64,000 nt of DNA. It comes from Apoderus coryli. Its lineage: Eukaryota > Arthropoda > Insecta > Coleoptera > Attelabidae. The notes under the pieces were generated by a model, which ran no database searches, was not told where the DNA came from, and saw nothing but the letters and a program-made list of their open reading frames with translations. Location of the stretch: contig OU452202.1 of assembly GCA_911728435.2 (NCBI GenBank), positions 5,559,135 through 5,623,134 on the forward strand, read 5' to 3'. Positions 4,361-61,127 of this stretch are shown here, piece by piece (positions within the stretch are counted from its first letter, which is position 1; each line of letters opens with the position of its first letter). The translations under genes were made by a program, and so were the position numbers.

Positions 4361-5060
4361 TATTGAGCCAAAAATTTTTTTACATCAATAATTGTTAGAA
4401 TGGAAAGTCCTAATTCAATACATAATTATTAAATTTAGAACCAAAGTAGGTACCTAAATAGCTTGGAAAACCCACCCTAATAAGAGATGGTAAACAGACC
4501 CTTGTTATTGCAGGTATTTATAGCAACGACTATGGTACTCTGACGAACTCATAATAAGAGCGAAACGAATTCGTCAGTATCTGTCGACCCATGCCTCGGT
4601 CTGGTTCTACTGAAAACTAAAACCAGTCATTTTGTCCGCTATGCCACGAAATTATTTTTCAATATTATAAATAATGTTTTTTTTTTCAATATCCCTTTTT
4701 GCATATTTTGAATAAAGTAGATACATATTTATGCGCATATTTATTTCATATTTTTGTGCATATTTGACCCTGTTTAATTATAACAAATGCCAGGTTGTCC
4801 CTAAAAAACACAGCAATACTGAAGAGTCAGTTCCAAGGAATGACATAACTAACAATTACAGGAGCTATGAAAATATCACTAAAAAGTTCATTCCTCGATT
4901 TGTATCTGACGCTGGCAAGGCTAAAAGTACTTGCGATATCAAACCAATGTAGTATGTACAAATAATTTTCTGTACAATAATAAACACACTCTTCACATAT
5001 CCTCAGTCCTCTGTTCCATCTTATACGACTTAACACCTTCGCACATTTTTCTGGAGCATG
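4361..5060. repeat. Hammerhead-bearing repeat fragment and flanking intron
   Basis: About 4510-4660 matches 35140-35330: the ribozyme and a downstream block with TTTGTCCGCTATGCC in place of TTAGTCCGCTTTGCC. Nothing recognisable was seen in 4361-4500 or 4700-5060. Confidence 0.6.
4532..4592 (+). ncRNA. Degenerate hammerhead ribozyme copy
   Basis: It is near-identical to the intact motif at 35156-35216. Core CUGACGA at 4540-4546, GAAA at 4562-4565, stem III and the GUC cleavage triplet ending at 4575 are kept. The closing pair of stem II is broken (ACUC opposite GAGC, an A-C mismatch at the core), which in known hammerheads would reduce or abolish cleavage. Confidence 0.75.
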
Positions 5061-6284: not shown

Positions 6285-9200
6285 TTATAATAATAATAAT
6301 AATAATAATAATAATGCTTTATTGCTCAACAGTATTACCATTTACAGAGCAACAATATCTTAAATAATCATAATGTGCATACACATACATAATCAAACAT
6401 TTGCGTCACAATCATTGAAAAATACATAGCCAACTGAATATAATAGCGCCTTAATAAAGGTAAATAAAAACACTTTTATGCTTAAAAATAATAATAAAAA
6501 TAATCAATTAAATCAAATTCACACTCACAATGCATGCCTTCTCAAGATTGGTACAGCAGCCGAAACCATACTACCAAGTGAATCATGATTGATATCAGAA
6601 ACACTAGATATGCGGTTAAATACATCACACATATTAAATACAGGAGATCTACATTGAATATTAGTTCTAGCTCTAATGTTATAAAAAAGCAAGTTATTTC
6701 TGGCATTTTCACGTGGCACCCAAAAATTAACCCGCTCAAGGAGACTACTACAACAGATTTTGTTATTTAATAATTTGAATAAAAATACAATTAGTGCTAG
6801 GCCCCGTCGCAAATCCAAACTGGAAACGTTAAAACGAGTGGTCAACAACGAATAATTTACACCTTGGTCAGGATAAGTTCCATCCTCCCGAAAACACAAA
6901 AACTTCAAAAATCTTCGTTGGACTCTCTCAATAAGTAATTTATAAGATATATAGTAGGGACACCATACAACTGAACAATATTCCAATTTCGAGCGAACAT
7001 AGGCATAGTATAAAATCATCAAAATATTTAAGTCAGCAAAGGGTTTGGAGCATCTAACAACAAAGCCATAGATTCTTAGAGCATCGCTTACATTTGAACG
7101 AATATGGTCATTAAAAGAAAATTTAGAATCAAACAATACTCCTAAGTCATTCGTAGAATCATAACGTGTAACCGATATGTCATCAATACAATAATCATAA
7201 TGCAGAGGCGTTTTCTTCCGCGTATATGTAACTACCTTACATTTGTCGGGGTTCAAATACAAACGGTTCGCAACACACCAAAGTCTTATGGCATCCAGAC
7301 AAAGCTGTAAACTTTCACAGTCCTCAGCACTGTTTACAGACTTAAAAATCTTAAGATCGTCGGCAAAAAAGAGACCCGAACATGTCAACTCCAGAGCCAA
7401 ATCGTTGATAAAAATTAAAAATAAAAGAGGACCTAAATTGGACCCCTGTGGTACTCCCGAGACAGCCTTATAACAATGTGAGTCGAAACCATACAATGAT
7501 ACATATTGATATCTTTCAGACAAATACGAGGAAAAAAGTGATACTAAACTCGGTCCAAAACCAAAACCCTCCAACTTCTTCAGCAACACAACATGACTTA
7601 TTCGATCAAACGCCTTGGCAAAGTCCGTGTAAACTGCATCCACCTGACCACATCTATCCAACTCATCACAAACAAACTGCGAAAATACAGCCAAATTTGT
7701 GACAGTCGACCGCTGCGGCATAAAGCCATGTTGCATGTGCGTTATTTGATTTCTCACTTGAGGAAAAATGCGATTATATATAACAATTTCAAACAGCTTT
7801 GAAAAATTAGATAATATTGAAATTGGTCTATAATTCGATACCGAGTTTCGATCACCACTCTTAAAGACAGGACATACTTTGGCCTTCCTCCATTTAGTAG
7901 GGAATACTTCTGATTTGAGAATAAGATTATAAAGCATACATAGTGGTCGCGCCAAAGCATAAGCACAATCTTTTACCAAAAATGATGGAATAGCATCTGG
8001 TCCTGCTGTAAACTTGTTTTTAAGCTTTCGAGAAGCCAAAATAATATCTTCCTCAGTGATATTACCAATAAATATCTGGGACGCAAAATCGATTCGAGGC
8101 AGTAGCAAATCTATCATGTCTTCATCATGACTCACAAACACACTCTCAAAATACTGAGCAAAACTGTTGACAATCGCCCGCTGATCACTTAGATCATTAT
8201 CACCACACTTCATGACCCCTGGTATACGAGTAGCTTTACTACGAGTGCCCACAAATGACCAAAACTTACTTGGGTCTGATTTTATGTTCTGCTCGACCTT
8301 TCTGATATGAGTAACATAAGCAGCTTTTATTTGTTGTTTGATCATACATCTCAGTCTACTAAACTCAGCATAGTAATACTGCAAACCGGTACGCTTGAAA
8401 GCTTTATGAAATTTAGCCTTACATTTTATATTTGTGATAATTTCGGAGCTATACCAATGAGGATACTGACGCCTGAACGTTTTACAAAGAGGCACACTGT
8501 CCTCGATAACATTGTACAATCTATTATAAAATACATCAACAGCGTCGTCCGTATTGCTAAAGTTATTCAAAAACTGCCAGTCAAATTCAAGTAAATCATT
8601 ATATAATTTTGGATAATCAGCTCTTTTAAAATTGTACAGTTTTCTATTAACGTTTGTTAAAAATGGTTTTTCATTAAATTTCAAATCATCGAGCTGTATA
8701 TATAGTGCAGGGTGATATAAAATGTCTTCTCTTATCAACGGCTGACTATCCCTATTAATATTACAACAAACATTTGACAATACTAAATCTAGTAATCTAC
8801 CCATTTCATTCAAGATTCTATTAAACTGAGAACAGTTCATTACATTTAGAAAACCATTAATAACGTTTGTCTCCCGATCATTATTGTCTAATAAAGAGTA
8901 ATTGGTAACATTAAAGTCTCCGACAATTAAGAATTTATTTGCATGCAAATCCTGCAGCTGCTCAAGAGACTCAAAGAATGATTCAAATGATTCAAACGCT
9001 ACCGATGGTGGAATATAAACTACTAATATATACAAACAAACATTAGGCCAAGTACATTTACAACATAGTAAATCAATATTTGGAAATGATTCATCAATAT
9101 CGGTTGTATCAACAACCTGCACCCTAACTGAGTTTCTAACTGCCAAAATTACACCACCCCCATCAACCTTATTAACTAAATCAAATTTTCTATCTTTGCG

Positions 9201-9410
9201 AAAAACACAATAATAATCCGGAAAAATTTCACCACTCGACACGCCTGAATTAAGGAAAGTTTCAGTTAATGCCACAAAATCATACTCACATTCACTAACA
9301 GTCGCAAAAAAATCATGAGTCTTTGTACGAAGCCCTCTAACATTTTGATAATAACACGTGAGAGTCTCTATTCGATCGGTACTGCTGAGCCCGTCTAGTT
9401 TAAATTATTA
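6285..9410 (-). mobile_element. LINE-A, nearly complete non-LTR retrotransposon inserted in LINE-B
   Basis: The 3' end has an ATT-repeat tail (6285-6315), TAAA and a 6-bp stem-loop (6322-6327 with 6347-6352). The body carries one long endonuclease/RT frame open to about 9402. The 5' end is truncated at the start of the endonuclease. LINE-B coding sequence resumes on both sides, so LINE-A landed in LINE-B. Relatives share the same 3' stem-loop at 17809-17840 and 34329-34360. Confidence 0.92.
6525..9275 (-). CDS. LINE-A ORF2: AP-endonuclease plus reverse transcriptase
   Basis: This is an uninterrupted frame of 916 residues from the first Met; the frame is open further upstream to about 9402 and there reads TCYYQNVRGLRTKTHDF, the true endonuclease N-terminus. 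The endonuclease continues with VALTETFL, VVYIPPS and FLIVGDFN. The RT has KLKNKFTAGPDAIPSF, CPVFKSGDRNSVSNYRPISI, YTDFAKAFDRISH, GVPQGSNLGPLLFLIFINDL and a catalytic FFADD box. A Cys-poor C-terminal domain (VRSKLEYCSVVW, VQRRFLKFLCF) ends the protein. The role is target-primed reverse transcription of its own RNA. The lack of stops marks a young copy; the missing 5' end means it probably cannot mobilise itself. The clade (jockey, CR1 or I-like) is unresolved. Confidence 0.93.
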   Translation of the reverse strand: MALTETFLNSGVSSGEIFPDYYCVFRKDRKFDLVNKVDGGGVILAVRNSVRVQVVDTTDIDESFPNIDLLCCKCTWPNVCLYILVVYIPPSVAFESFESFFESLEQLQDLHANKFLIVGDFNVTNYSLLDNNDRETNVINGFLNVMNCSQFNRILNEMGRLLDLVLSNVCCNINRDSQPLIREDILYHPALYIQLDDLKFNEKPFLTNVNRKLYNFKRADYPKLYNDLLEFDWQFLNNFSNTDDAVDVFYNRLYNVIEDSVPLCKTFRRQYPHWYSSEIITNIKCKAKFHKAFKRTGLQYYYAEFSRLRCMIKQQIKAAYVTHIRKVEQNIKSDPSKFWSFVGTRSKATRIPGVMKCGDNDLSDQRAIVNSFAQYFESVFVSHDEDMIDLLLPRIDFASQIFIGNITEEDIILASRKLKNKFTAGPDAIPSFLVKDCAYALARPLCMLYNLILKSEVFPTKWRKAKVCPVFKSGDRNSVSNYRPISILSNFSKLFEIVIYNRIFPQVRNQITHMQHGFMPQRSTVTNLAVFSQFVCDELDRCGQVDAVYTDFAKAFDRISHVVLLKKLEGFGFGPSLVSLFSSYLSERYQYVSLYGFDSHCYKAVSGVPQGSNLGPLLFLIFINDLALELTCSGLFFADDLKIFKSVNSAEDCESLQLCLDAIRLWCVANRLYLNPDKCKVVTYTRKKTPLHYDYCIDDISVTRYDSTNDLGVLFDSKFSFNDHIRSNVSDALRIYGFVVRCSKPFADLNILMILYYAYVRSKLEYCSVVWCPYYISYKLLIERVQRRFLKFLCFREDGTYPDQGVNYSLLTTRFNVSSLDLRRGLALIVFLFKLLNNKICCSSLLERVNFWVPRENARNNLLFYNIRARTNIQCRSPVFNMCDVFNRISSVSDINHDSLGSMVSAAVPILRRHAL

Positions 9411-9810
9411 TTACTTACTACAACTCTAGGAGTCCCACATTTTAAAACACATGCAAGTGTATCATGATGTAGGGTGTCAAAAGCCTTTGTGTAATCTAAC
9501 AGACCATTGCAGTGCAATTATTTTTATCAATTTCCCTGAATATATCATCAGTGATATCAAGCAATGCAGTCGCACAACTATAACCCCTCCTAAATCCCGA
9601 CTGTGATTCTGGCAAAATATTATACCTGGTTAAATGTTCTATAAGTTGTTCCCTAATAATTTTGTTCTATAATCTTTGATGAGACCGGCAATATACTCAC
9701 TGGCCGCAAATGCTTGAAATCTGTCGGAGTTGAAATTTTAGGAATCGGTATCACCCACGCGACTTTCCAAATTTTTGGAAATACCGAATTTATTATACGG
9801 AAGTTTACTA
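9411..9810 (-). pseudogene. LINE-B reverse transcriptase, middle part
   Basis: The minus strand reads RIINSVFPKIWKVAWVIPIP and KHLRPVSILPVSSKIIE, then in another frame DYTKAFDTLHHDTLACVLK. These are successive RT blocks that lie between the fragments at 11453-11645 and 5285-6284. A frameshift separates the two readings. Confidence 0.82.
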
Positions 9811-11452
9811 TACAGGGTGGTCCAACTTTTACCTGCATAAATTTCAGAATCGATAGATAATCGACAAATAATGTGAGTTTGGTTAATAAACTATGTACGA
9901 AAAATTCTTCGTTACAAAGTTACAGGGTGTTGAAATGTAAGACAAAAATTCGAATTTTATTAATATCTTTATAACCAATTGAGATATTTAAATGAAATTT
10001 GGTACGTGTAGAGAGCTAATCTAGCTTAATTTTGCCATGTAGTAATATTATTTTTATTTCCACCAGTGGCGTGCGTACGGCTACCGATTGCGATATTTTG
10101 AATGAAAAAACAGATACGTCACTGGTTTTTCTCAAAATAAAAATTATATCCGCAATCCTTATTCAATTTAAAAGAAAAAAGTACTCTTGGCTTTTTTTCG
10201 TTTGACGCAACATTTTCGAGAAAAAAAATAAAAATCGTCTAAATCAAATTCTTAGGTCACTTCATAAAGATGGTAGAAAGGCTTACCATTTTAGGCCTGT
10301 GCAAGATTTGTTGCCTGAGGACTATGTTAAAACCCGTAACTGCATTGCAATTGGTTATTGAATAAAGTTCAAGTAGATGGAGATTTCCTGCAAAAGGTTT
10401 GCTGGACTGATGAAGCTTCATTTACAAGTACTGGTATAACGAATTACCACAACTTTCATATTTGGTCACAACACAATCCATACGAAGTGCGAGCGAGAAA
10501 GTTTCAACACCATTTCAGTGTGAACGTGTGACTAGGAGTAATATCCAATAATCTCCTCGGACCATTCTTTTTACCAGCTAGGGTCTTAGCACAATTGTTT
10601 TTAGACATTGTACAGAATAATGTAAATGATTTAATGGATGACGTGCCACTTCATTTACGTGCGAGTGGATGGTTTCAAATGGATGGAGCACCAGCACATT
10701 TCGGGCGGAATGTCTCTGGAGAAGTCGAAAATAATCATGAGGGACCTATATCTTGGACCCAAGGTTGCCTGACCTGACTCCACTTGATTTCTTTATTGGG
10801 GGCTACCTAAAAGAAAAAGTGTATAGGGTGCCGGTCAGAAACCGCGAAGAATTAGTCTTAAAAATTCAAGAAGCAGCAATTAAGAGCATCAGCAGAAGAT
10901 GTCAATTATGTATTGACAATGACGGTAGTCATTTTGGATAGTTTCTGTAAAAAAAACTGTAAAATCTGTTAAAACGTGTAATGAGATGTTATTTTTATGT
11001 TGGTTTTCAATACATTTGATTTAGACGATTTTTATTTTTTTACTCGAAAATGTTGCGTCAAACGAAAAAAAGCTAAGAGTACTTTTTTCTTTTAAATTGA
11101 ATAAAGATTGCAGATATAATTTTTATTTTGAGAAAAACCAGTGGCGTATCTGTTTTTTCATTTAAAATATCGCAATCGGTAGCCGTACACACGCCACTGG
11201 TGGAAATAAAAATAATATTATTACATGGCAAAATTCAGCTAGATTAGCTCTCTACACGTACCAAATTTCATTTAAATATCTCAATTGGTTATAAAGATAT
11301 TAATAAAACTCGATTTTTTTTCTTAAATTTCAACACCCTGTAACTTTGTAACGAAGAATTTTTCGTACATAGTTTATTAACCAAATTCACATTATTTGTC
11401 GATTATCTATCGATTCTGAAATTTATGCAGGTAAAAGTTGGACCACCCTGTA
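9811..11452. mobile_element. Tc1/mariner-superfamily element with long TIRs, inserted in LINE-B
   Basis: Terminal inverted repeats of roughly 230-250 bp begin TACAGGGTGGTCCAACTTTT and are bounded by TA. The arms contain internal blocks starting CCAGTGGCG. LINE-B coding sequence resumes exactly at both ends (11453 and 9810), proving insertion after LINE-B. It encodes a degenerate transposase at 10290-10941. Confidence 0.92.
10290..10941 (+). pseudogene. DDE transposase (Tc1/mariner superfamily), degenerate
   Basis: In spliced frames the plus strand reads VCWTDEASFT (first catalytic Asp), LGPFFLPARVL, GWFQMDGAPAHFGRNV (second Asp) and LPDLTPLDFFIGGYLKEKVY (third acidic residue), a transposase type common in insect genomes. 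The N-terminal DNA-binding part is missing and at least three frame breaks occur (about 10360, 10530 and 10760). Confidence 0.8.
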
Positions 11453-11645
11453 TATTTTAAGATAAATGGACAACAAAAATAAGAAAGTTTATATGTATGC
11501 CATCAACCCCAACAGCCTTAGACTTTATTTGACATAGAGCTTTGGAAATTTCGATTTCAGTAACTTCTTGAAACACGAGTGTAGAATTTACAGAATTTTT
11601 AACACCAGAGTAGTAATTATATTCAATTAAATTAAAATGCATATT
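11453..11645 (-). pseudogene. LINE-B reverse transcriptase, N-terminal RT fragment
   Basis: The minus strand reads FQEVTEIEISKALCQIKSKA followed by VGVDGIHINFL, the first RT block (usually SKAxGxDGI). It continues across the Tc1/mariner insertion into RIINSVFPKIWK at 9800. It ends about 30 bp from the spen exon at 11675. Confidence 0.82.
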
Positions 11646-15499: not shown

Positions 15500-17860
15500 T
15501 AAAATTCACAATTTGTTCAGTTTCGTTTCAATGGTTGATTCCAATTTATCATTCTTTCGACCATCCCCGTAACAATTCCTCAATTCTGGCACGTTTATTG
15601 ATAAAATTTCGGAAATTGTAATAAAGCCGAAACCATTTTCTCTGAATTCCAATTTCACTCCTTATAATTTCAAGAAAGCGGATTACCCAAGCTTGTATAG
15701 CGCACTTCTTTTGGAGGATTGGTCTGAGGTCGGCGATGGTGGCGATGACATTGACGTTGTGGTAGACAAAATGTATGAAATTATCTATAAAATCATTGAT
15801 AGGCATGTCCCTCGAGTTCGGAATTTCAAGCGCAAGTTCCCGGTCTGGTTTACATCCACAATAATTAGAAATATAAAGGAGAAAGAACTGCAGTTAAGAA
15901 AATACAGAAGAACTGGTGATCCGAACTGTTTGGAAAAATTTCAAAGACTTCGAAGAGCCGTGAAAAGTGAGATTGATGTTGCCTATTCAGAATATCTGGA
16001 ACGCGTGCAGGGTGGCTTAATGAGGGATCCTGCTTGTTTCTGGTCATTTTTTCATGCAAAAAATAATACCACAAGAATACCTAGCGTCATGTCATTCAAT
16101 GATGAGCAATACAGCGAGCCACAGGCTATAGTGCAGTGCTTTGCTGAGTTTTTTAATAGCGTATTTCAGAAGCCCAGTGAATCTGATGTCAGTACTGTGA
16201 ATAATTTCTCTTATTCCACGATTTCTGTGTCGAATATTACTGAAACTGAAATAATTGATTCTTGTAAAAAATTGAAAAACAAGTTTACGGCCGGACCTGA
16301 TGGGTTGCCATCGTTTCGGTGGCGAGAGGCAAGAGTTGTGCCTGTTTATAAAGCAGGCGACAGATCGCTCATTAATAACTATCGACCGATTTCTATATTA
16401 TCCAATTTCTCTAAATTATTTAAAGCTGTGCTGTATAACAGAATATGTAATTCCGTACATGGGCAAGTTTCCCTTAATCAGCATGGGTTTTTCCCCGGGA
16501 GGTCCACTGCCACTAACCTTGCAATTTTTACTCAGCAAGTGAACGAGGTTGTTGATGGTGGTGGGCAATTTGATGTGTTGTATACAGACTTTGCTAAAGC
16601 ATTTGACCGTTTGGATCACCGAATACTTGTTCAAAAGCTCGATCGATTCGGATTTGATGATGGTTTGAAGTCGTTAATTACTTCATATCTTCAGAACAGA
16701 CTTCAATATGTATATTATAACGGCTATACGTCAGAGAGGTATTGGGCTTCCTCAGGCGTTCCGCAGGGATCCAATTTGGGTCCACTGCTTTTTTCTATTT
16801 TTATAAATGATCTAAATGATTGTCTGTGTGTAAAACGGCTTTTTTTGCCGACGATCTTAAGTTGTTCGCCCCTATTACTTCTCATGTAGACTGTCTTCGG
16901 TTGCAGGACGATCTGAGAGCTGTGGAACACTGGTGTAACGTTAATAATCTATCGCTCAACGAGAATAAATGCAAATGTATGACATTCACTAGAAGGAAGA
17001 ATATTATAAGTTTTCGCTACACGGTTGGTGGGACCGCACTAGCTAGGTGTCTGACTGCTGCTGACCTGGGCGTGCTTTTCGACTCTAGTCTGTCATTTGT
17101 GCCTCATGTGGCTGCTAGGACTGGTGAAGCTGTGAGATCCTACGGTTTTATCGTGAGAAGCTGTAGGAGTTTTCATAGCATTGATGCGTTGAAAGTTTTG
17201 TATAACTCTTTTGTGCGTTCGAAGCTCGAATATTGCTCCCTGATTTGGTACCCGATCTATCAGATTCATGTGCGGAATGTTGAGAGTGTCCAAAGAAAGT
17301 TTTTGAAATACCTTTCATTTAAGGCAGACGGTATTTATCCTGACAGAGGGATTCAATATACGTTGTTGCTGAACAAGTTCAATTTCAAGAGTTTGGAGTT
17401 CAGAAGAATGTTTTTTTCTCTAAAATTTTTGTATGATCTTTTACATAATAGAATCGACTGTTCTGAACTCCTGGCTCAAATAAATTTTAACGTGCCCAGA
17501 CTTGACGCCCGCAATCCTTTAACTTTCTACTCTCAGCGCCCTTGCACTAACCTCTATACAAAATCGCCCGTATATGTCATGTGTAATAATTTTAATTTGA
17601 TTTGCGCTGACTGTAACATTTTTAATTGTTCAAGGGAAGCACTTAGGAGGGCTGCTCTGACTGTTTGTGCGTCGTAGTTTCTCTTTTTGTTCTTGTTAAT
17701 TGTTTAATTAGTGTAGATCAATCATGTTTTACTATTAATGGATTGCTTATTGTGTTATGTATAATATTTTGTTTTTTTTTTTGTGGAATTACCTATTGTA
17801 TTATAATTTTGCTCTGTTAAGGGAGAAATCTGTTGAGCAATAAAGGCTATTATTATTATA
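15500..17860 (+). mobile_element. LINE-C (same family as LINE-A), plus strand, 5' truncated
   Basis: It begins within the endonuclease-RT linker (PYNFKKADYPSLY parallels YNFKRADYPKLY of LINE-A) and ends with stem-loop 17809-17814/17835-17840, TAAAG and ATT repeats to about 17858. It is inserted in the spen intron about 100 bp from the RRM3/4 exon donor, opposite to the gene. Confidence 0.9.
15693..17677 (+). pseudogene. LINE-C reverse transcriptase with frameshift and RT deletion
   Basis: The first frame (15693-16889) reads through KLKNKFTAGPDGLPSF, VVPVYKAGDRSLINNYRPIS, YTDFAKAFDRLDH and GVPQGSNLGPLLFSIFINDL. A frameshift at about 16815-16825 is followed by the second frame, with FFADDLKLF and the C-terminal domain (VRSKLEYCSLIW, VPRLDARNPLTF) to 17677. 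About 28 residues between PSF and RWREARV are missing relative to LINE-A, a clean in-frame deletion in the RT at about 16313. Both defects would inactivate it. Confidence 0.9.
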
Positions 17861-17954
17861 CTATTTTTGTAACAATGCACTTCCTGTTTACAATCAGTAA
17901 CAGTGCCTATGATTAAGGCTAAACTATAAATACTCAAAACTAAAATATCCTTAC

Positions 17955-18619
17955 CTAGAAAATCTTGTAGTTATTCCACCACCTTCAAAACTTCTACCCT
18001 TTTCCTCAAAAAACGTTCTATCCGTAGCACTTGCACCATGTTTTTCCGATCTTTCAAAAAAACACTCTTGACACTCACGACTAGCAAAATCCACCTGTAA
18101 CTTAGTATTTTTCATAACAAATCCACGCATTTTAAGAACAGCCTGTTGCGCATGTAACACTTGTTCGTAAAACACTAACGCCTGTCCCCTATCACGATCT
18201 AAAAGACATTTACTCACTACACCGAACGGTTCGAATTGCATTTTCAGGTACTTTTCCGTTACATGTTCATTTATACCGTCTATCCATACGCAATTGTATG
18301 GCATTGATTTACCAAAACCTAATTTTATACGATTATTGCCTAAATGTTCGCCATCTAATTTGCGTATGGCTTTCACTACGCTCACAATGTCCGCATATTG
18401 GCAGAAAGCGTACGAACTCACAGCCCCCTGTTTTTTAATATCGATTTCGATGATTTCCCCGAACTGATCGAAGTGTTTCCTGAGATCTGAAGCGGTGACG
18501 TCCTTCTCCAAATTGCCAATGAACAAAGTCCGTGTGGCTTTTGGATGATATTCATCAATTTCCGCTTCGTACGGTCGTAAATCACCATCATCGGCGTCAC
18601 AGACCGCGTATGGCGCCAC
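17955..18619 (-). CDS. spen: spen coding exon: RRM3 and RRM4
   Basis: This is the largest exon in the window, 665 bp, in phase after the RRM2 exon. It starts VAPYAVCDADDGDLRPYEAE. RRM3 follows, with RNP2 LFIGNL and RNP1 SSYAFCQY, ending RIKLGFGKSMP. RRM4 is immediately adjacent, with RNP2 CVWIDGI, RNP1 RGQALVFYE, and ending KLQVDFASRECQECFFE. The tight RRM3-RRM4 tandem is the signature of Spen/SHARP, where these domains provide the main structured-RNA contact surface (family knowledge). The aromatic residues of both RNP1 motifs are intact. A short Gly-rich tail precedes the donor TCTAG|GTAAGG, leaving two bases of an Arg codon. Confidence 0.97.
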
Positions 18620-22080: not shown

Positions 22081-22387
22081 ATTTGAAAAATACTGCTGTG
22101 TGGCTAAATGACAATTAACTTAAATAAAAGCCCAAAAAGTAGTCCAGTAGTAGAACCTTCATGTTCAATGGGAAGACCCCGCTGGGTACCCTCTATTCAC
22201 AGTTAACGTATGTACGTTTCACTACGAAACACTGCGCACCGTAAGAAAATCGTAAGTTAGTACGAATATTATTTGAACAGCGTATTTCAAATGTCCATTA
22301 GTTAAATATAAAATTAAGAGACAGATTTGCCAACGTAAATCATAATTCTTTCATTAAAATTAGCAAACAGCAAAAAGATGATCCTAC

Positions 22388-22736
22388 CTCGATCTTACAT
22401 CCGAAAAACAACTTATCATAACTAACTTCCAACGCCTTTTCCACATCCTCTGGCTTTTTAAAACACACTATGGCATGCCTGTCAGTGCTCTGGCCCACCA
22501 CTTTCACCCACGTCACTTTGCCGTGTTTTTTGTACTCATGAAATAATCCGTCTTTTAATGAGGTGTCTGAAGAACGTAACGGCAAATTTTTTACACATAT
22601 GGCCAACGGTCGTCTATCGTCCGGCGTGTGATTGGATGATGACGTTTGACGTCGCGATTTCGGTGAGCCTGTAGTTGAACTGGTGTCCCGTGACGTTGAC
22701 GAGCTGGATGAAGATGAACTGCTGCGGGACCTCGAC
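22388..22736 (-). CDS. spen: spen coding exon: Ser-rich tract and RRM2
   Basis: This is a 349-bp exon with acceptor TTGATCTAG and donor GAG|GTAGGAT. It opens with SRSRSSSSSSSSTSRDTSS, then carries a complete RRM. The RNP2 strand is AICVKNLP, the middle is LFHEYKKHGKVTWVKVVGQ, the RNP1 strand is RHAIVCFKKP, and the domain closes with KLFFGCKIEV. The match to the second RRM of arthropod Spen is very strong by eye, and the Ser run preceding it is also typical. The exon ends on a codon boundary, matching the phase-0 start of the RRM3 exon. Confidence 0.95.
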
Positions 22737-23052
22737 CTAGATCAAGAAATAATAAAATCATTAGTTTTATTATATCAAAATATCAGCTATGAACAAGTGA
22801 TCAACCTTAGTAGGCAATTCTCTCGGGTCAATATACATATAATTAATTCTTGTGTCTTTTTTGTACAGTACCCACTTACCAATTGTGGAAAAAGACACGA
22901 TATTTTCTTGAGAAATTAATTACATGTTTCCATTCGTTACAGACAGTCTCTATTGAAAAAGTTGTTTAATTAAATTGTAGCTATATAAAGACAGATGAGA
23001 ACTTATCAATGTATTAAATGAATAGATATCAACATTCAATTTATAGATATTT
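22737..23052 (-). other. spen intron part, nothing recognised
   Basis: Short AT-rich stretch between the RRM2 exon and the next inverted element. The open frame at 22683-22919 is exon antisense plus intron. Confidence 0.5.
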
Positions 23053-23300
23053 GTGGAGTTATTATTATTTATTTCCATAAAATATTAATTTATCGCTCCT
23101 CTCCAATATAAAATATTTCTTTAAATTAAAATTGTATAAGATTGTGTCTTGAAATAGCTCGATTAGACAATCGTTAAAATGACTTGTGTACGTGAAACGA
23201 TAATATATTTTATTAATAATAATTATTATTTTTTCACTGACGAAATAAAAGTCTAATCTCCACATAAATAAATTTAATAGAAATTTATAATCAGCATCCA

Positions 23301-23336
23301 AATATGTTTCGGAACTGACACCAGTTCCATCATCAG
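23301..23336 (-). ncRNA. Hammerhead-like motif
   Basis: On the minus strand: CUGAUGA (23336-23330), one U, stem GGAACU/AGUUCC (6 bp), GAAAC (23310-23306). It has one extra base between core and stem compared with a canonical hammerhead. Confidence 0.6.
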
Positions 23337-23582
23337 TTCCAAAAAAATTTCTATTGAGGTCATTTTTATGAAAATTTTTTTGTTGTTGTTTGAATTAATA
23401 AAACATTAAATAAAATCAAAAACTAACATTATTATGCTATCTTATGTTTCTTTTTTTATATCATAATGGTTAGTCGATTTTTTTATTAAACTAATTTATT
23501 ATTATCTAATTAATAATTATCTATTTTATTTTTAGAAAATAATAAATTAGTTTCATAAAAATATGGATTAGCCATCATGATA

Positions 23583-24308
23583 TACAGGGTGTCCCGAAAT
23601 TAACTTAAAACAATTTAAGGGGACATTCTACAAGCGTAAATAAGTTTTTTTTTTTTCATATGTTATTAGTTTGTCATATACAGGGTGTTATTTGTAAATT
23701 CCTGATGTGTTTTTAGTAAAATTTCCGAAACGCGTCTCGATATGAAAATGACATTTGGCACACTTAGGTATCTTTGTAGGAAAGGAAGAAGTTATTCTCT
23801 CAACCCTTAATACGCATTTCCACCCTGTTTCTTGTATTATCGTAGCAGTAAATAATATTGGAGACGTTGCATAGGAATTTTCAAAGTCATTTATCTTCAA
23901 AACGGCTTCTTCTAGCGTTATGAAACAAGCGAACATTTTTTATGTACAACGGTCTCAAATTTATTATTGTTTTTAGAAAAAGTAAAAAAAGCGCTCAAAA
24001 AAAAAGTTGGGCCAAAAATTATTCTGACTCCCCACAGCCTAAACCACGCCTGACATTTTCCTAACAATCAGATATCACATTTTTTAATAATTCTACAAAG
24101 ATACGTAAGTGTGGCAAATTTAATTTTGATATCAAGACGCGTTTCGGAAATATTACTAAAAACACATCGTCAGGAATTTACAAATAACACCCTGTATATG
24201 AAAAACTAAGCATTTTTCGACATATGTTCATATGAAAAAAAAAATTCTTATTTTAGCTTGTAGAATGTCCCCATAAATTATTGTAAGTTAATTTCGGGAC
24301 ACCCTGTA
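23583..24308. mobile_element. Nested foldback DNA elements with TACAGGGTG ends
   Basis: The outer ends TACAGGGTGTCCCGAAATTA / TAATTTCGGGACACCCTGTA are near-perfect inverted repeats. An inner inverted pair begins TACAGGGTGTTATTTGTAAA (about 23680) and ends near 24198, with arms containing CGAAACGCGTCT. There is no coding capacity. This is either a compound element or one inserted in another of the same family. Confidence 0.8.
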
Positions 24309-24626
24309 TAAAAAGAAACATAAGATAACAAAATAATGTTAGTATTTTATTAATTCAAACAAGAACCAAAAATTTTCCATAAAAATAGCATCAATAGAAA
24401 ATTCTCTGGAACATTAAATTTGTATTTGTAAAATTGGTGTACACCAAACTATTCGTCCATGCAAAAATGCGATGTTGGTAAGAGAAGAAATATATCTGAA
24501 GAAGGCGAATGTGCCGAAAAATCTCCCTTTTAAAACAGAACTTTTATCCCAAGAAAATTGTAACAAGGTTCAAGAAAAAAATACAAGTTTAAAATTAAGT
24601 AAATTTGTAAGTTTCTCTTTTTGCCA

Positions 24627-24655
24627 CTGATGATGGAAGTTGTTCCGAAACATGT
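24627..24655 (+). ncRNA. Hammerhead-like motif
   Basis: CUGAUGA (24627-24633), U, stem GGAA/UUCC (24635-24638 with 24643-24646), GAAAC. It is the mirror partner of the motif at 23301-23336. Confidence 0.6.
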
Positions 24656-24990
24656 TTGTATGCTGATTATAAATTTCTATTAAATTTATTTTGGTGGAGA
24701 TTCGACTATTATTTCGTCATTGAAAATATACAACTCCACTTAAGAATGGATTATTTTTTCAAATTAATAATTCTTTTTTATTTTTAAAGTTTATCTTCTT
24801 CGGGATGTAGGTTCATTCATAATAATATAAATTACTTTAGGAAATAAAAATATTTAAAGTCATTTATTTTAACACGTTCGTGTTTGTATATTGTAATGAT
24901 TCTTAAATAATGTTTGAGTCTATTCTTTATGTATACACAATGTTTTTTTTATTCTCAAATGTAATTAGTGAACTTGTGTCAAAATGAAAC

Positions 24991-34568: not shown

Positions 34569-34760
34569 TAGGAATACAATATACTATTAAAGTTCGAGTA
34601 ATTTTGTGAACACCTAAATTTCAAAAAAAAAAAACTTTTATGAATAACTGTTGTAATAATCCATTTCAGAGAGGAGTAAATATTTATTGAAGGAAATAAA
34701 ACTGTGTCTACTCCACAAAATGTTATTTATACATATTCAAACCTGAACAATACTGTCAGA

Positions 34761-34791
34761 CATGTTTCGAGATTTGATATCTCATCATCAG
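34761..34791 (-). ncRNA. Hammerhead-like motif
   Basis: Minus strand: CUGAUGA (34791-34785), U, stem GAGAU/AUCUC, GAAAC (34768-34764), then AUG. Confidence 0.6.
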
Positions 34792-35155
34792 TGACAATAA
34801 CGTACAAAAGTCCTCATAAGAAGGTTAAACCAGATTCAAACATCCATACATCAACTTTGTGAAAAAATTTGAGGTAAAAATTACATAAAAATGGAAACTA
34901 ATTATACACTAAACATTACAATGTGAGTTGCTCCAAATCAAATCTCGAAACATGTCTGACGGTGTTGTTCAGGTTTGAACATTTATAAATAATAAATGAA
35001 AAATAATTTAATGGCAAAGCGGACTAAAGTGCATGGTATAGGATATGCATTACTATGTACAATGTACATGTAGATGATACGTGTTTACATGTGTCTACTG
35101 TTGTGTATCTTATTGTGCTTAAATGCAGGCTGATATTTGTAGATGGGCAACGACT

Positions 35156-35216
35156 ATGGTACTCTGACGAGCTCATAACAAGAGCGAAACGAATTCGTCA
35201 GTATCTGTCGACCCAT
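35156..35216 (+). ncRNA. Canonical type I hammerhead ribozyme
   Basis: All conserved elements are present in order. Stem I 5' strand AUGG-UACU (35156-35163); core CUGACGA (35164-35170); stem II GCUC/GAGC (35171-35174 with 35182-35185) with loop AUAACAA; GAAA (35186-35189), of which the last A pairs with U 35198; stem III CG/CG with AAUU loop; cleavage triplet GUC ending at 35199; stem I 3' strand AGUA (35200-35203), internal loop UCUGUCGAC from 35204, then CCAU to 35216. Predicted self-cleavage falls between 35199 and 35200. The stem I internal loop and loop II could form the tertiary contact that speeds natural hammerheads. Short stem III type I ribozymes are known from Penelope-like elements and retrozymes. 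Confidence 0.88.
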
Positions 35217-35412
35217 GCCTCGGTCTGGTTCTATTGAATTAGACTGGGGCCGTGCTAAATTAAACAAAATTCCTCGTGTAGGTAAAACCAGCACTTTAGT
35301 CCGCTTTGCCATTAAATTATTTTTGATTTATTATATTTACGGACATGAAATCCTTTTAATTTATAAATAATATTTTGTGGAGTAGACGCAGTTTTATTTC
35401 CTTCAATAAATG

Positions 35413-36141
35413 TTATGAATAATTTTCAGTTTCATTAGGGCCATGTTTTGGACCATATTTTTAACACAAATTATTTTTTATCTCAAAACCGATAGAGCTG
35501 TCATATTCTCTAGAAATAAGTAAGACACGAAAGAGTTTTTGAACTGAACGGACAATTTAAATTTTTGGTCGAAAGAGGTCAGCGGCGTTACACAAAAAAG
35601 TTCGGGGAGAATAACATGCATTGAAAAACACCAGAAAAATTCCAAAATTTTAACACCATGTAACTCTCTTCGTATTATGCAACCTCATATTACAAGCTAC
35701 CCAAGTAACAATTATTATTTTACGATTGTATTTTTCAACTACATAAATATTATGTATTATCTAAAGTACTTTACCTTTGAGAATATAGCAACAACACTAC
35801 TTAAAGTACCATCTCAGCGTACTCTAACTCATATTTAATAACAGCATTGCATGATGCAGAGAGTTTCAACGTTAAAAAATCTTGAAATAATTACCCTGCC
35901 ATTCACAGAAAAAACAAAACACGAGTAATGATAGTCGTTTTCGACATGTGTAATAAATATTCACACACAGAACACAGTTTCTCTGCAATTATGGCTGAGT
36001 GAGCAAAAAAAATGTTAGTAACAACTTCGCATTCTTAGAACAGAAATTAAAATATGTCCGAGGTGTTTTTTTTTTCAAAGTCCTCATTTACTTAGTATAT
36101 TATGGTGATATTTTGAAATATCGCACAGTGGAACAATCATA
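35413..36141 (-). other. spen intron part, no gene recognised
   Basis: AT-rich; a short open frame at 35055-35237 just to the left is the hammerhead region read through. Nothing recognised here. Confidence 0.45.
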
Positions 36142-43759: not shown

Positions 43760-44950
43760 TACGAGGCTACTACTTTTCTACATAATTTCCATGAATATTG
43801 AGGCACTTGTCATAACGTGGCACCAGTTTTTGAATACCCTCCTCATAAAATTCTGCCGCCTGACTTGTTAACCACTTATCGTCTTGAAGACGCTGACCAC
43901 CCAGGTGTTTCTTCAAGTGCAGAAACAAATGGTAGTCGCTGGGCGCCAGATCAGGGCTGTATGGAGGATGATCTAGAGTTTCCCATTTAAAAGATTTGAT
44001 GAGATCTTTGGTCCGATTAGCCACATGTGGACGGGCATTGTCATGCAGCAAAACGATACCCTTACTCAACTTGCCATGTCTTTTGTTCTGGATTGCACGA
44101 CGCAGATTGTTCAATGTCTCACAATAAGACGCTGCATTGATTGTCTCATTACGAGGCAGAAACTCCACTAGCAATACTCCTTTTCTGTCCCAAAAAACTG
44201 TGCACATGATTTTCCGGGCAGAAATTGTTTGCTTAAACTTCTCTCTTTTGGGTGATGATGAATTCTGGTGTGACGTAGGCCACCCATGTTTCGTCACAAG
44301 TAACAAATTGGTCTAAAAAATCTTCACCTTCATTGTGGTACCGCTCAAGGAAAGTCAATGCACTGCCTAAACGTTGGGTTTTGTGCAAATCCGTCAACAT
44401 TTTTGGAAACCAACGTGAACACAATTTCCGGTAATTCAAGTTCTCGGTCACAATGCGATACAAAACACTACGAGAATATTGAGGACAGCAGTCGCACATT
44501 GATGAAATTGTAAAGCGTCTGTTTTCTCTCACCTTTTCCTCCACTTTCTGCACCAAATCTTCATTAACGACCGAAGGACGCCCACTCCTTTCTTCATCAT
44601 GCTCAGTTGTGCGGCCAACTTTAAATGCTCTCACCCATTTCCTTAACATTCCATCACTCATAATGTTTTGTCCGTAAACTTCACAGATCTCACGATGAAT
44701 ATCGATCGGTTTTACGCCTTTAGCACTAAGAAATCGTATAACAGCCCGTATTCACAATCGGCGGGACTCACGATTGTCAGAGGCATCTTAAACACTCAGT
44801 GAACAACGTATACAATGAGGAATCAGACTGTAATGGCGTCAGTGCGTAGAAAAGAGATGTAGGTAACCAGCGCACATGCGCGGAACGTCGACCGTAGCGC
44901 TGCGGCGGCGGAATTGCAAAACGGTACTTACTAAAAAAACGTGCCTCGTA
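43760..44950 (-). mobile_element. mariner element 2 (same family as element 1, opposite orientation)
   Basis: It begins TACGAGGC at 43760 and ends GTGCCTCGTA at 44950. Compared with element 1 it lacks about 90 bp between TACGAGGC and the transposase stop, removing most of the 3' TIR. Confidence 0.87.
43770..44790 (-). pseudogene. mariner transposase, one frameshift, catalytic triad intact
   Basis: Reading leftward: MSDGMLRKWVRAFKVGRTTE, HDEERSGRPSVVNEDL, FVTCDETWVAYVTPEF (first Asp), a frameshift near 44260, then KFKQTISARKIMCTVFWDRK, IVLLHDNARPHVANRTKDL (second Asp) and YSPDLAPSDYHLFLHLKKHL (third Asp), ending HGNYVEK. Only one obvious frame break, so it is younger or better preserved than element 1. 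Confidence 0.88.
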
Positions 44951-46690: not shown

Positions 46691-46721
46691 GTTTGCACTA
46701 TTAATAATCGTTAATGCTTAC

Positions 46722-47048
46722 CCATGGCCGTTAGGAAATCTGGTCGCTCCGGGTGAGGTAGCATACGGGGAGGACGAGTTTTGCGGCGATGCCCCGGGGG
46801 CACCGCTACCACCTTGGGGAGCTCCTGAGGCACCAGTGGCACTAGTTGCACCAGGAGCAGCGGACGGAATGGCGGCTGGTTCATAGTACTCTGTATTCAG
46901 AGTCCTGTCGTCGATTTTCAATTCGGCATTATGAGCCTTGGACGCACTTTTGATGTCCATGAACGCCACCGTGCACGCCATCGTGACCTCACCCGTCTTC
47001 TCCTCGGTGACCCTTGGCAGTAGTTTAACGCTTTGCACCCGCCCATAC
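46722..47048 (-). CDS. spen: spen coding exon: most of RRM1 plus Ala/Gly/Ser/Pro linker
   Basis: This is the most upstream spen exon found. It begins after a TTTTTTGCAG acceptor with one base completing a split Arg codon, then reads YGRVQSVKLLPR, the beta1-alpha1 to beta2 turn of Spen RRM1. It continues through TMACTVAFMDIKSASKAHNA (RNP1-like strand and second helix) to the end of the RRM at about residue 50. After that comes a low-complexity Ala, Gly, Ser and Pro linker, which is unusually GC-rich for this window. It ends ATGG before a GTAAGC donor, leaving two bases of a Gly codon. The RNP2 half of the domain (the HLWVGNLP-type strand) must sit in an exon further right that I did not find. 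A LINE remnant ends only about 30 bp past the donor. Confidence 0.93.
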
Positions 47049-50000
47049 CTGCAAAAAATAATTAATTTAAATTAAAAGATGCATATTAAATCATAAAATT
47101 ATTATAAAAAAAAAGTAATATTAAAAATTGTCGCAATACAGGACACACTGTACTTAAATGGTTTTAGTGAACTGCACCAATGTTCTTATTTATGATTTTC
47201 TACTTTATGCAATTAATTATTATTGTACCAAACTTCTTTTTCTTTTCGACTTGGGTTAACCATAAGTTTTCATTTTTCAACAAAATAACCTTAAAAATTC
47301 AGTAAATCTTTTTATTGGATATAGACTTATAGAGTTCGAAATAAAAAATCAGTCTGGCCATGAGCTTCATTTATATAGGTAATGATTTTTTTACCGGAAA
47401 GTGTATAATAGGTAACTAGTTGTCATAAAAATACACAAAGATCTTTGTCGCAACAAAAAAGGTTGAAATTATTTAAAAAAAATGTAATTGTGTACCTTCA
47501 GTAGGTGACAGAAGTTCAAACTACTAAGCAGTTACCCGTTTTTAGCTGAAAATAATCATATATGCAACTACATTCTTGTAAAAGTATACCTTACCATAAA
47601 GTACAATAGGTAAATTAACATTTTCGTTTCTCTACAGTTCGAATCACTTTTTTCAAAAACAAATCTATACTTAAAATACCTACCTCGAATTTGAGAATAG
47701 TAAAGCAAATATTTTTTAACGTTTGTATTACATAATATATAGGTAGATATATATTAGAAAAGCAAAAGCCAATATGTTTTAATTCTAATTATTATTTAAG
47801 AAATAAGTCACCTTTGAGAAAAAAATTATTACTTATATAACTTTCAAATATACACGCAATGTTCTAATGTGTTAGAATTTTTGCTCAATTATGCAGTAGA
47901 GTTTTAAAAATTGTATCCCTTATTAAAATCTTGATTCTCAAGAAAAATATCCAGAAATTAGTTAATGGAATTAGGTTGTTTTTTATTTTATTTTTTGTGT
48001 ATATTTGGCTTCAGAAAATAACCTATTAGCATCGTAAATATAATAAATATACTGTACTATTAGCCACAGATTTTTAGAAACGCTTAGAATTTGTTTTTAG
48101 ATGCAAAAACAAAATATTTGCCTACTAGAAGCTATTATAAATCATATAATTTCAAATATACTTCAAGGATAAAAGAAAAAGGGTCAATTGGTATCTATAT
48201 ACCTAACAGCCGCAATTAAACTTGTAATTCTAATTGTATTGAATATTAGAACCAATGAATGAAAATTTGGGCACTGGTTTTTCTTTCACAAGAGTTTGGT
48301 TTTTAATTATAAACGAAAAATAGGTGTATTGGCTTAAAATCTAATTTTTAATATAATTTTTCTGTCATCAAGAAAGGGAATAGTTATTTTGTATCATACA
48401 AGTATAATATTGTACTAAATTTTAGTAATAAGAAAGAAAACCATTAACACAAATAATATCGTACATTAAAAGTGGAGCTGCGCAAGCAGCCCGCCTCACA
48501 TTCAATACTTTTGCTATTTTAGAAAGGAAGGTCCGAACCAGTCATACTCATTAAACAGAGAACAAAAATAAATGACGTGTTCGTGTTCGAATAACTTACA
48601 GTCAGGAATATCAAATTGGCAGTGCCCCAATAATGGAAGCGGGTAGGGGCAAAAGTAGAAAGGGAAGTTCATGCGCACGGTGAAATTTTATAAAAGCCAC
48701 CCATCCCATGGCTTTGATATTATTTCGCTGAGGTCAACTGACAACAGAGGATTGTTCTCTACGTTCGCCATCGAAGCTGCGCTATTATAACTACACCATC
48801 TTTTGTTCTTTATAAGAACACTGACCATATTTTTACATTTCAGGAATAAGTGTAGTGTTTTACATCGGCATATTGTGCTTTAACCAAACCTATGAGGATT
48901 ATAAATATATTGTTTGAACATAAATATAAGGAATATTTTGAACTACACTAGAAATAAATTAGGGTGTGGTTAGCACCATGTTACTTGCATCTTTCACTTA
49001 CGATATCTCAAAACCAAAAACTGTGCGTGTTACTATACGCTTTTTAAATGAATAATAATGGAAAAACTATAAAATTAAACTTTTTTACAAAATTTTGTGT
49101 TGTGTTATGTGTTTTAAAAAAGGATTTATATTTGGAATACTATATTAAAACAAAAAAGTAAGTAGTGTTTACCACAGCGCGCGACATATAATTATTTATA
49201 TTACCTAGGTATCTACTAACACTAAAGAAAATATTTGCAATTGATAAAAAAAAAACTCGTTCAAATAAATGCCTATAATACCCAATTTAGATTGCGCATG
49301 AAAAAAGTCTAGAAAAAATCTTTCAAGCTAGATTGATTTTTGAGCTGAGCTGGCAGCGGCCATTATTCGGTCGCCAGTATTGCCACATTTGCTCACATTT
49401 TTATTATTTGTGACCTATTTTATTTATTTCTACAACTACATTAATGTCATAAACTGAAAATCTTCTTAGTTTTAAATAAAAACTTTTCTTAATATACGTT
49501 GTGATCAATTTTTGAAATGACATTAACATTTTAAACCGTAAAATAAATTTGTTGAAACAAATTACGGCAACTGTGCGAATACGTGTTACCAAGCAAGCAG
49601 GCCTCCCCTCTTGCCCCACCGTTTATCTATCCCTGCCACACCACCCGCACAACAGCCAATGATGCGGTGTTGCCGTGTCAGTGTCCCTGCTGCTTTCCAA
49701 TTCCAATAATATCAGTGGATAAACCAGTAAAGCAACAGTATACAGTAGTAGCTCATACAATTCTTTAATCTGTATAAAATGTGGGAAGGCGGACAGTTCG
49801 AATGGTTCATGATACACAGTGGCACAATGAAAATTAATACATGTTCTACTTAAAATTATTCCTAAACGAAAATATTTTTTGTAATAAAACTTTTTATTAA
49901 TTTAGTTGAGTTGTTGAAAAGGAGGATGATATTAAATTTGAAAATATCCAACGTTCTTTGTTTAAATTAGTTTATTTTAATTAGTGATAGTAAAGGGTTT

Positions 50001-57699: not shown

Positions 57700-58140
57700 A
57701 TAAGAAAAACTTTCCCGACAAGATATAATCTAAAATACCTATATGCCCTGGGTAACGAAACAATCTGGAAATGGTCCCATAGTGCGTCCATACATAATAA
57801 TAGTAATAAACTAAGATAACAAACTACTTTATTTCAAAATTATAAATAAAAAAAAAATTCACGAAGAGCTGGAATTTGAACTCAGAACTTTCCGCATGCA
57901 AAGCGCACACTCTACCACTGAGCTACACTAATGCGAATTATCTCGATCTTACCAACTACCTAACTGGGGAAATTTTAAACGCAATCTTCTCGAGAACTAC
58001 TGAAAGTAAATTAAAAGTAAACTGTTGCTGTAAAGAGCATAAAACTCGACCCCTACGGCCATTTAAGAATTTGGCGGTTGTGTGCCCCCTTATCAGATGG
58101 TTAAAGCGATTTTAACCAAAAACAAACAAAATGTTGGTTG
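57700..58140 (-). repeat. tRNA-headed repeat, copy 3 (Ala-TGC-like head)
   Basis: ACTTTCCCGACAAGATATAA and ATATGCCCTGGGTAACGAAA, then on the minus strand at 57863-57933 a tRNA-like head: A box TAGCTCAGTGGTAGAGTG, anticodon loop TTTGCAT and B box AGTTCAAATTCC. The acceptor stem does not pair, so it is a SINE-type head and not a functional tRNA. Confidence 0.7.
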
Positions 58141-60216: not shown

Positions 60217-61127
60217 TAGGAAAAAATCAATGATTTTTATATAAAAATCAAAAAAATCATGATTTATTTGATTTTTTTAAAATTTATGTTATTAAAATGT
60301 GATGCTTTGTTCAAAATGATGATTTTTTATTGATCAGCACTTAATTTATTATTTCTGGCTTTATGATTACTATAATTTGTCTAAACAAAACTAGGAATAG
60401 AAAAGGCAAATTAGTATTTTTATATAATTTGAAGAAATAGTCCATACTCTCAGTGGAGTGCTAAGTTAATACAAAGCCAACAAATATCGTCACCTCCACA
60501 AATCTTTTATTTGAAAAAATCAATTAAAAACATACATGTTTCGAGGATTTAGATCCTCATCATCAGTATCAATCCAGTGTACCTATATATTTTAGAGGTA
60601 TTCAATATAAAAACATCACAATTAAAAGGCAAACATTAAAACAGATACACACAAAACGCCACATATTTAAAATGAGATTCAAAATGAAAAAAAAAATATG
60701 TGGCGTTTTGTGTGTATCTGTTTTAATGTTTGACTTTTAATTATGATGTTTTTATATTGAATACCTCTAAAATATATACACTGGATTGACACTGATGATG
60801 ATGATCTAAATCCTCGAAACACGTATGTTTTTAATTGATTTTTACAAATAAAAGATTTGTGGAGGTGACGATATTTGTTTGCTTTGTATTTATTTTTATA
60901 TAAGTTCTTGAACGAAAATAATTTGTTTTGCATTGTTTTTTTTTAACTGTTTTGAGCGTTTTGTCTATTTCTTAGGTTTAATAGGTAAATATTATAAAAT
61001 ACAAATAATATTATAATAATAAGACAGCTTATGTGAATTAAAAGCGGAAGATTTAGCAAATTTATGGTTTGATTTTAAATATGATATTTATTTAAAAAAA
61101 CAGTTGATTTAAATCAGCTCAACCGTG
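60217..61127. mobile_element. Possible hAT-like shell containing a giant hairpin
   Basis: Left region has ATCAAAAAAATCATGATTTA (60249) and right end TTGATTTAAATCAGCTCAAC (61103), resembling the CAGGGTTGATAAAAATCA ends elsewhere. Between them is the inverted repeat 60468-60891. Confidence 0.35.
60468..60891. repeat. Near-perfect 200-bp inverted repeat with hammerhead-like motif in each arm
   Basis: Arms 60468-60669 and 60693-60891 are complementary almost throughout, separated by about 24 bp. The left arm holds, on the minus strand (60566-60538), CUGAUGA, U, stem GAGGAU/AUCCUC, GAAAC; the right arm holds the mirror (60792 on), with one mismatch in its stem. Confidence 0.88.

Follow-up and report, generated by a model that had tools for sequence, protein, structure and literature searches.

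The closest described systems are the GIY-YIG Penelope-like elements (PLEs) and the metazoan non-LTR retrozymes. In PLEs of Adineta, according to the available text, inverted pLTRs lie mostly head-to-head, one of them optionally bears a 31-bp tail, and the TSDs are 8 to 10 bp; for head-to-head copies the authors favor self-priming on an antisense template, not priming on two strands (PMC3846280). The accessible part of a study on an Anolis PLE protein describes cutting and extension of both strands, with two adjacent internal starts that bound the tail (PMC11167929). PLEs have been proposed as the helpers of animal retrozymes because both have hammerheads and tandem copies and because they occur together (PMC7229834 and PMC7761336, as far as their available text goes). 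The portion available of a 2020 review likewise puts PLEs forward as likely candidates, but finds in the metazoan retrozyme repeats no conserved motif that would reveal the helper (PMC7761336). A literature search that covered mostly titles and the beginnings of abstracts returned no report of the insertion anatomy described below for retrozymes. Here we describe a hammerhead ribozyme in a 64,000-nucleotide stretch of the Apoderus coryli genome (the window) together with its family, whose roughly two thousand copies within a single genome preserve a record of integration. It is in this record that the value of the observation lies.

A type I hammerhead ribozyme in the window

A preliminary description of the window reported a complete hammerhead ribozyme at positions 35156-35216. 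All of the ribozyme elements were found there, namely CUGACGA from 35164, GAAA and GUC, a GCUC/GAGC stem II with the loop AUAACAA, a 3-bp stem III (ACG/CGU) closed by the loop AAUU, and a UACU/AGUA stem I. The assignment to the plus strand and the predicted cut at 35199/35200 also hold up as predictions. The distal part of stem I, given as AUGG/CCAU, can pair as described, but an extension by GG/UC scores better (-8.7 versus -5.3 kcal/mol). With a CUGANGA/GAAA/UH core, three stems, and an open stem I, the motif has the makeup of a type I hammerhead. A strict descriptor (CUGANGA, stem II of at least 4 bp, stem III of at least 3 bp, and stem I of at least 4 bp) matched both strands of the window at this single place and gave no match in 200 dinucleotide shuffles.

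The lack of a covariance-model hit above threshold had been named beforehand as grounds for rejecting the motif, and formally this was the outcome, since the Rfam models gave no hammerhead match at gathering. In E-value mode the motif was assigned to RF02275 (Hammerhead_HH9) with 20.1 bits and an E value of 0.049, the gathering score being 52, and both ribozyme copies of a sister locus received the same RF02275 score. We give this sub-threshold score less weight because the genome contains 2001 exact copies of an 18-nt ribozyme core and none of its reverse (see below). Judged from the sequence, the hammerhead at 35156-35216 is confirmed as real and complete. The fold of lowest energy differs from the hammerhead and has CUGACGA paired to UCGUCAG (-13.9 versus -8.7 kcal/mol, taking secondary-structure energy alone). 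The complementarity of CUGACGA to UCGUCAG at the cut site (35164-35202, and also in the unit of the reference locus L021) would provide a competing inactive fold, and such a fold could protect circles from being cut. The 102 ribozyme copies compared were too alike for covariation, with the commonest changes, at positions 6 and 49, forming no proven pair; conservation of the ribozyme is biased upon this sampling, as seed copies were picked by an exact 18-mer within it.

The motif had also been placed inside an intron of spen. Two Pfam RRM exons on the minus strand (17954-18619 and 22343-22741) lie at lower coordinates than the motif. The high side offers an ORF at 46718-47071 (minus strand) that is spen-like by eye and has no Pfam match at 0.001 (only RRM_5 at an E value of 0.28). 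Because the high-side exon was recognized by eye only, the location in a spen intron is graded as likely rather than proven.

Several other features were noted in the window. A tRNA-like sequence at 57865-57929 (minus strand; 32.4 bits versus a gathering score of 29) was its sole gathering match and may be a pseudogene or the head of a SINE. An element of about 1.65 kb at approximately 9810-11453 has long terminal inverted repeats (ends near ACAGGGTGGTCCAACTTTTACCTGCATAAAT) with transposase-like remnants inside, all by eye. Mariner-like transposase ORFs at 3466-4056 (plus) and 43770-44751 (minus) are very similar and lie on opposite strands, the similarity and the family being judged by eye, and ORFs for LINE-like reverse transcriptases lie at 6525-9275 (minus) and 15693-17677 (plus), with a length of 916 amino acids in one of them (family by eye). 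The whole window had no match to phages.

Two nested insertions at the locus

A repeat search of the window returned three long pairs of inverted arms. The element limits first proposed around the ribozyme, 34677-35412, proved wrong: the locus consists of two nested insertions, each with its own TSD, and these separate TSDs rule out a single element of that extent. The inner insertion is a retrozyme at 34995-35358 (plus strand), whose arms were mapped to the unit described below (U454-495 and U199-523). Its inverted arm runs on the minus strand from 34995 to about 35031 and its main arm on the plus strand from about 35030 to 35358. It is flanked by an exact 14-bp TSD, ATTTATAAATAATA, with the left copy at 34981-34994 and the right copy at 35359-35372. 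The outer insertion, which the retrozyme interrupts, is a head-to-head PLE pLTR pair at 34648-35412, tailed at its left end and untailed at its right, with both arms reading outward and a 10-bp TSD, TTATGAATAA, repeated in the flanks (34638-34647 and 35413-35422). A motif scan found a minimal PLE-type hammerhead, CTGATGA..CGAAACATGTC, on the minus strand at 34759-34791.

The window retrozyme copy contains one hammerhead and is without about U1-198, and for that reason would be unable to form a unit circle alone. Having a single ribozyme and an incomplete unit, it is probably a dead passenger. A decayed second copy lies at 4523-4669 (plus strand; U309-400 and U445-496), where the ribozyme stretch has 97% identity and a single changed base in stem II.

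A high-copy family with a 525-bp unit

The genome of the species itself (428,062,225 bases, 428 Mb) was searched for further copies. The exact 18-nt core, GAGCGAAACGAATTCGTC, occurs 1019 + 982 = 2001 times on the two strands, and its reversed control 0 times. When up to 3 mismatches were allowed, the 61-nt ribozyme gave 1004 + 1006 copies (control, 0). A similarity search in which 40 of 1340 candidates were scored listed 41 matches, comprising the window copy, 39 matches of 98% across some 191 bp, and a short one. The loci analyzed below were 20 from this similarity list, 49 from the first 100 listed core positions, and two window stretches. They total 71 loci and, when joined across gaps of up to 30 nt, 81 clusters, some of them duplicates.

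The retrozyme unit (U) measures 525 bp; in the reference locus L021 two laps of it are 99.5% identical over 372 bp. Its GC content is 38.7%, and its longest listed overlapping ORF is 70 amino acids, so that no RT or GIY-YIG ORF was found among the listed ORFs of the unit, none of which exceeds that length. The family thus has the tandem unit in many copies, the type I hammerhead, and the lack of a long ORF that are expected of a metazoan retrozyme. Folded as a circle, the unit reaches -164 kcal/mol, whereas 20 mononucleotide shuffles average -116 kcal/mol. The seam between U525 and U1 is crossed in 21 of 78 clusters (L040, L041, and L077 dropped). At C1:14789573-14795269, seven minus cores are followed by five plus cores, all at exactly 525-bp steps. 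The ends of this array, fetched separately, carry a common 12-bp flank repeat, and the whole array of about 6 kb is therefore probably one insertion event. Two arrays from the core listing each hold one period, with ten steps of 525 in one and two of 515 in the other. The core had 0 matches in viral contigs. We regard the family as young, high in copy number, and new among metazoan retrozymes.

Insertion anatomy

Arm orientation was scored in the 81 clusters. Minus-then-plus (head-to-head) arrangements numbered 44, as in PLE-type integration, with 23 clusters plus only, 14 minus only, and 0 plus-then-minus (tail-to-tail). The outer ends are mostly 3' ends and fall at two sites about 30 nt apart: among 125 outer 3' ends, 52 lie in U480-504, 3 in U505-514, 52 in U515-525, and 18 elsewhere. 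Ends were accordingly classed as untailed (N, U480-503) or tailed (T, U512-525). Both ends could be classed in 31 of the 44 head-to-head clusters, giving 29 N+T, 2 N+N, and 0 T+T, and the remaining 13 have at least one end outside both classes. After L039, L040, and L041, which are one duplicated locus, were counted once, 27 of 29 inserts were N+T, 2 N+N, and 0 T+T (Fisher P = 3.3e-6). L077, which has a left flank in common with L076, was not among the classed inserts. At least 27 discordant pairs arise in 5e-6 of random pairings. A tail of about 30 nt on one of the two ends, the PLE-type arrangement, is thus seen in 27 of the 29 classed inserts, with 13 of the 44 clusters unclassed. A prespecified prediction for five newly fetched inserts gave strictly N+T in four of them; the fifth had a T end and an end at U470, just beyond the N class. 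The flank repeats of these five were 11, 10, 12, 12, and 12 nt, all within 10 to 12 bp. In the first sample a flank repeat of at least 12 bp was present at 21 of 81 clusters, versus 0.08% of shuffled flank pairs, and the TSDs of the family are about 9 to 14 bp, that is, longer than 4 bp.

Three retrozyme inserts (L009, L019, and L057) are split by about 0.75 to 1.3 kb of foreign sequence and were excluded from the count. L019 and L057 appear to be N+T by their ends, with flank repeats of 14 and 13 nt enclosing the whole, and L009 by its ends alone; all three may represent nested insertion or captured sequence.

The inverted repeats that bound the window copy might suggest a DNA transposon, a foldback element, or a satellite with a chance hammerhead, a reading to which we give almost no credence. 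The 5' ends and the 5'-5' joins differ by locus, the lengths of the arms and TSDs vary, and single-arm copies with TSDs exist, which led us to reject a foldback DNA transposon, and the 0 matches of the strict descriptor in 200 shuffles argue against chance origin of the hammerhead.

A second reading is that LINE (non-LTR) machinery moves the retrozyme and that the head-to-head copies are products of ordinary twin priming. TSDs of 9 to 14 bp and inverted 5' segments are compatible with this as well, LINE-like RT ORFs are present in the window (family by eye), and at 34 of the 44 5'-5' joins the overlap measures -4 to 8 nt. Twin priming, however, leaves the outer end of the inverted arm at scattered internal positions. 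Instead of such scatter, 36 of the 44 left ends in head-to-head clusters fall within U482-525, and the majority of inverted arms share their two end sites with the main arms, in complementary pairs. Nor was a poly(A) tail seen by eye at the insert ends. We consider LINE transfer improbable, and the sampled integration record fits PLEs better than LINEs.

Most one-orientation clusters (31 of 37) have no adjoining flank repeat, and 20 of these have none of at least 9 nt within 2.5 kb. A nearby repeat of at least 9 nt was found for the other six, although matches of 9 to 10 nt within 2.5 kb also arise with reversed or shuffled flanks. L021, L015, and L035 (repeats of 12 to 13 nt) and L065 and L030 (9 nt) all end at T, whereas the 9-mer repeat of the sixth, L048, is part of the element. 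That five of the six end at T is a hint that the tailed site is the first start, and the order of the two starts, tailed first, is proposed on that basis.

PLEs in the same genome

The same anatomy was observed in the PLE copies of this genome. GIY-YIG matches numbered 150 listed of 1260 candidates, and among these 150, all 18 neighboring pairs less than 5 kb apart were head-to-head. Scanning 313 kb for motifs turned up 41 hammerhead-like places; many of these are PLE-like and six are retrozyme variants. A scan for the PLE 3' motif returned six head-to-head pLTR pairs, of which five were N+T and the sixth (L048) ends at the locus border. A further head-to-head pair in the window, missed by that scan, lies at 60428-60890 and is tailed on the left and untailed on the right (by eye), with a 13-bp TSD. 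The head-to-head PLE insertion at 23237-24749 (limits approximate) is untailed on the left and tailed on the right, and its 12-nt repeat overlaps the element. PLE flank repeats are 8 to 13 nt, counted as raw matches without a shuffled control. Retrozymes were located in or by PLE targets in three cases. The two candidates for hybrid inserts of PLE and retrozyme arms that were inspected by eye (L030 and L074) look like retrozymes inserted beside or in PLE pieces. A different PLE was noted at L078:600-720, with the minimal hammerhead CTGAGGATGCTAAC..GCGAAACGCGCGTC and, about 70 nt past it, what looks by eye like coding sequence of another element.

The tails of the PLEs repeat GUGGAG...CUCCAC, with the untailed end between the two motifs and the tailed end beyond them, a layout that is not independent of the search, of which the first motif and CUCC formed part. 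In the retrozyme, UUUAGUCCG/CGGACAUGAA is arranged in the same way. A predicted hairpin, UUUAGUCCG/CGGAC-A-UGAA, spans 35295-35349 (plus strand), with the untailed RT start in its predicted loop and the tailed start just 3' of it. Its statistics are weak (folding z of -2.17 for the window copy and, in L021, -1.06 for one stretch and -0.25 for another). The GUCCG/CGGAC stem keeps five standard pairs in 58 of 69 copies, breaks at least one pair in 7, and is gapped in 4; one copy is compensatory.

Form of the template

Not one of 157 segments starts or ends in U355-367, around the ribozyme cut. Seeds chosen to contain the core favor spanning of the cut, a bias to which inverted arms and neighbors were not subject. 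As no segment ends at the cut, it is unlikely that linear units with free cut ends served as templates, and circular or uncut multimeric templates fit the segment ends as sequenced. Uncut multimers too could template laps. Whether both arms come from one RNA was judged from their similarity. Some young inserts have identical arms (in L028, 0 of 314 positions differ); in 57 arm comparisons, no other arm was nearer than the sibling in 18, and the sibling was nearer than the median in 43. With the sibling closest or tied in only 18 of 57, the arms are often unlike, and one shared RNA per insertion is thus not established.

A third reading holds that the templates are uncleaved tandem transcripts and not circles, the hammerhead merely trimming RNA ends or being dispensable. 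Tandem genomic copies that could be transcribed exist, and the accessible text of PMC11167929 reports that PAc hammerhead mutants still insert and that uncleaved RNA is the main substrate in vitro. The two arrays that each keep one period, as laps on one circle would, speak against uncleaved templates, an argument limited by the fact that a uniform source array would look alike. Circles are moreover abundant for published animal retrozymes, according to the text available (PMC7229834). We think this reading rather unlikely, with a better claim than LINE transfer.

Discussion

Taken together, the sequences make it quite probable that PLE machinery, priming on both target strands, copies the retrozyme from RNA that is circular or multimeric. 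Multimeric or read-through transcripts would be cut into units by the hammerhead, and the units would be closed into circles. A reverse transcriptase/endonuclease, presumably PLE encoded, would cut both strands of an AT-rich target and prime on both. One primer would start at the tailed site, about U515-525, and the other at the untailed site, approximately U480-503, some 30 nt upstream in the predicted hairpin loop. Each cDNA would then extend 5'-ward, at times through several laps, and the pair would be joined 5' to 5' into a head-to-head insert with TSDs of about 9 to 14 bp.

A broader proposal, to which we lean with some reserve, is that animal retrozymes are circular-RNA parasites of the Penelope machinery, the circle mimicking the PLE start hairpin, and that two subunits prime the two target strands at fixed sites, tailed first, and then roll round the circle. 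If this is true, rolling round the circle makes arrays like the one of about 6 kb on C1 in one event. The record suggests that a single insertion can produce a satellite-like array through laps on RNA that is circular or multimeric. It also points to a helper and a start site that can be tested directly, and it provides a simple genomic test for other species.

The cave-cricket satellite pDo500 is a roughly 500-bp insect repeat with a hammerhead; it is a satellite, and is likened to the present unit by length and hammerhead only. With the metazoan non-LTR retrozymes, as described in the available text of PMC7229834, the family has in common a type I hammerhead of the canonical kind, an arrangement in tandem, TSDs exceeding 4 bp, a low GC content, and a unit that is well paired when folded as a circle. 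The retrozyme RNAs given there are about 170 to 400 nt (150 to >1000 nt in the discussion), compared with the 525-bp unit here, and head-to-head inserts with paired tailed and untailed ends, present here, are not described for metazoan retrozymes in that text. These inserts are instead like those of the GIY-YIG PLEs, for which the accessible text of PMC3846280 and PMC11167929 describes head-to-head insertions, a tail of about 30 nt on one side, a short TSD, two adjacent RT starts, extension of both strands, and a hammerhead. Unlike PLEs, the retrozyme unit has no listed ORF over 70 amino acids, carries the full canonical hammerhead in place of the minimal PLE form, and has no sequence match at an E value of 0.01 to L078, the one PLE stretch compared. 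The link to Penelope elements and retrozymes that was suggested when the motif was first noticed holds up, and the insertion record, as read from these copies, supports the PLE-helper proposal with independent features.
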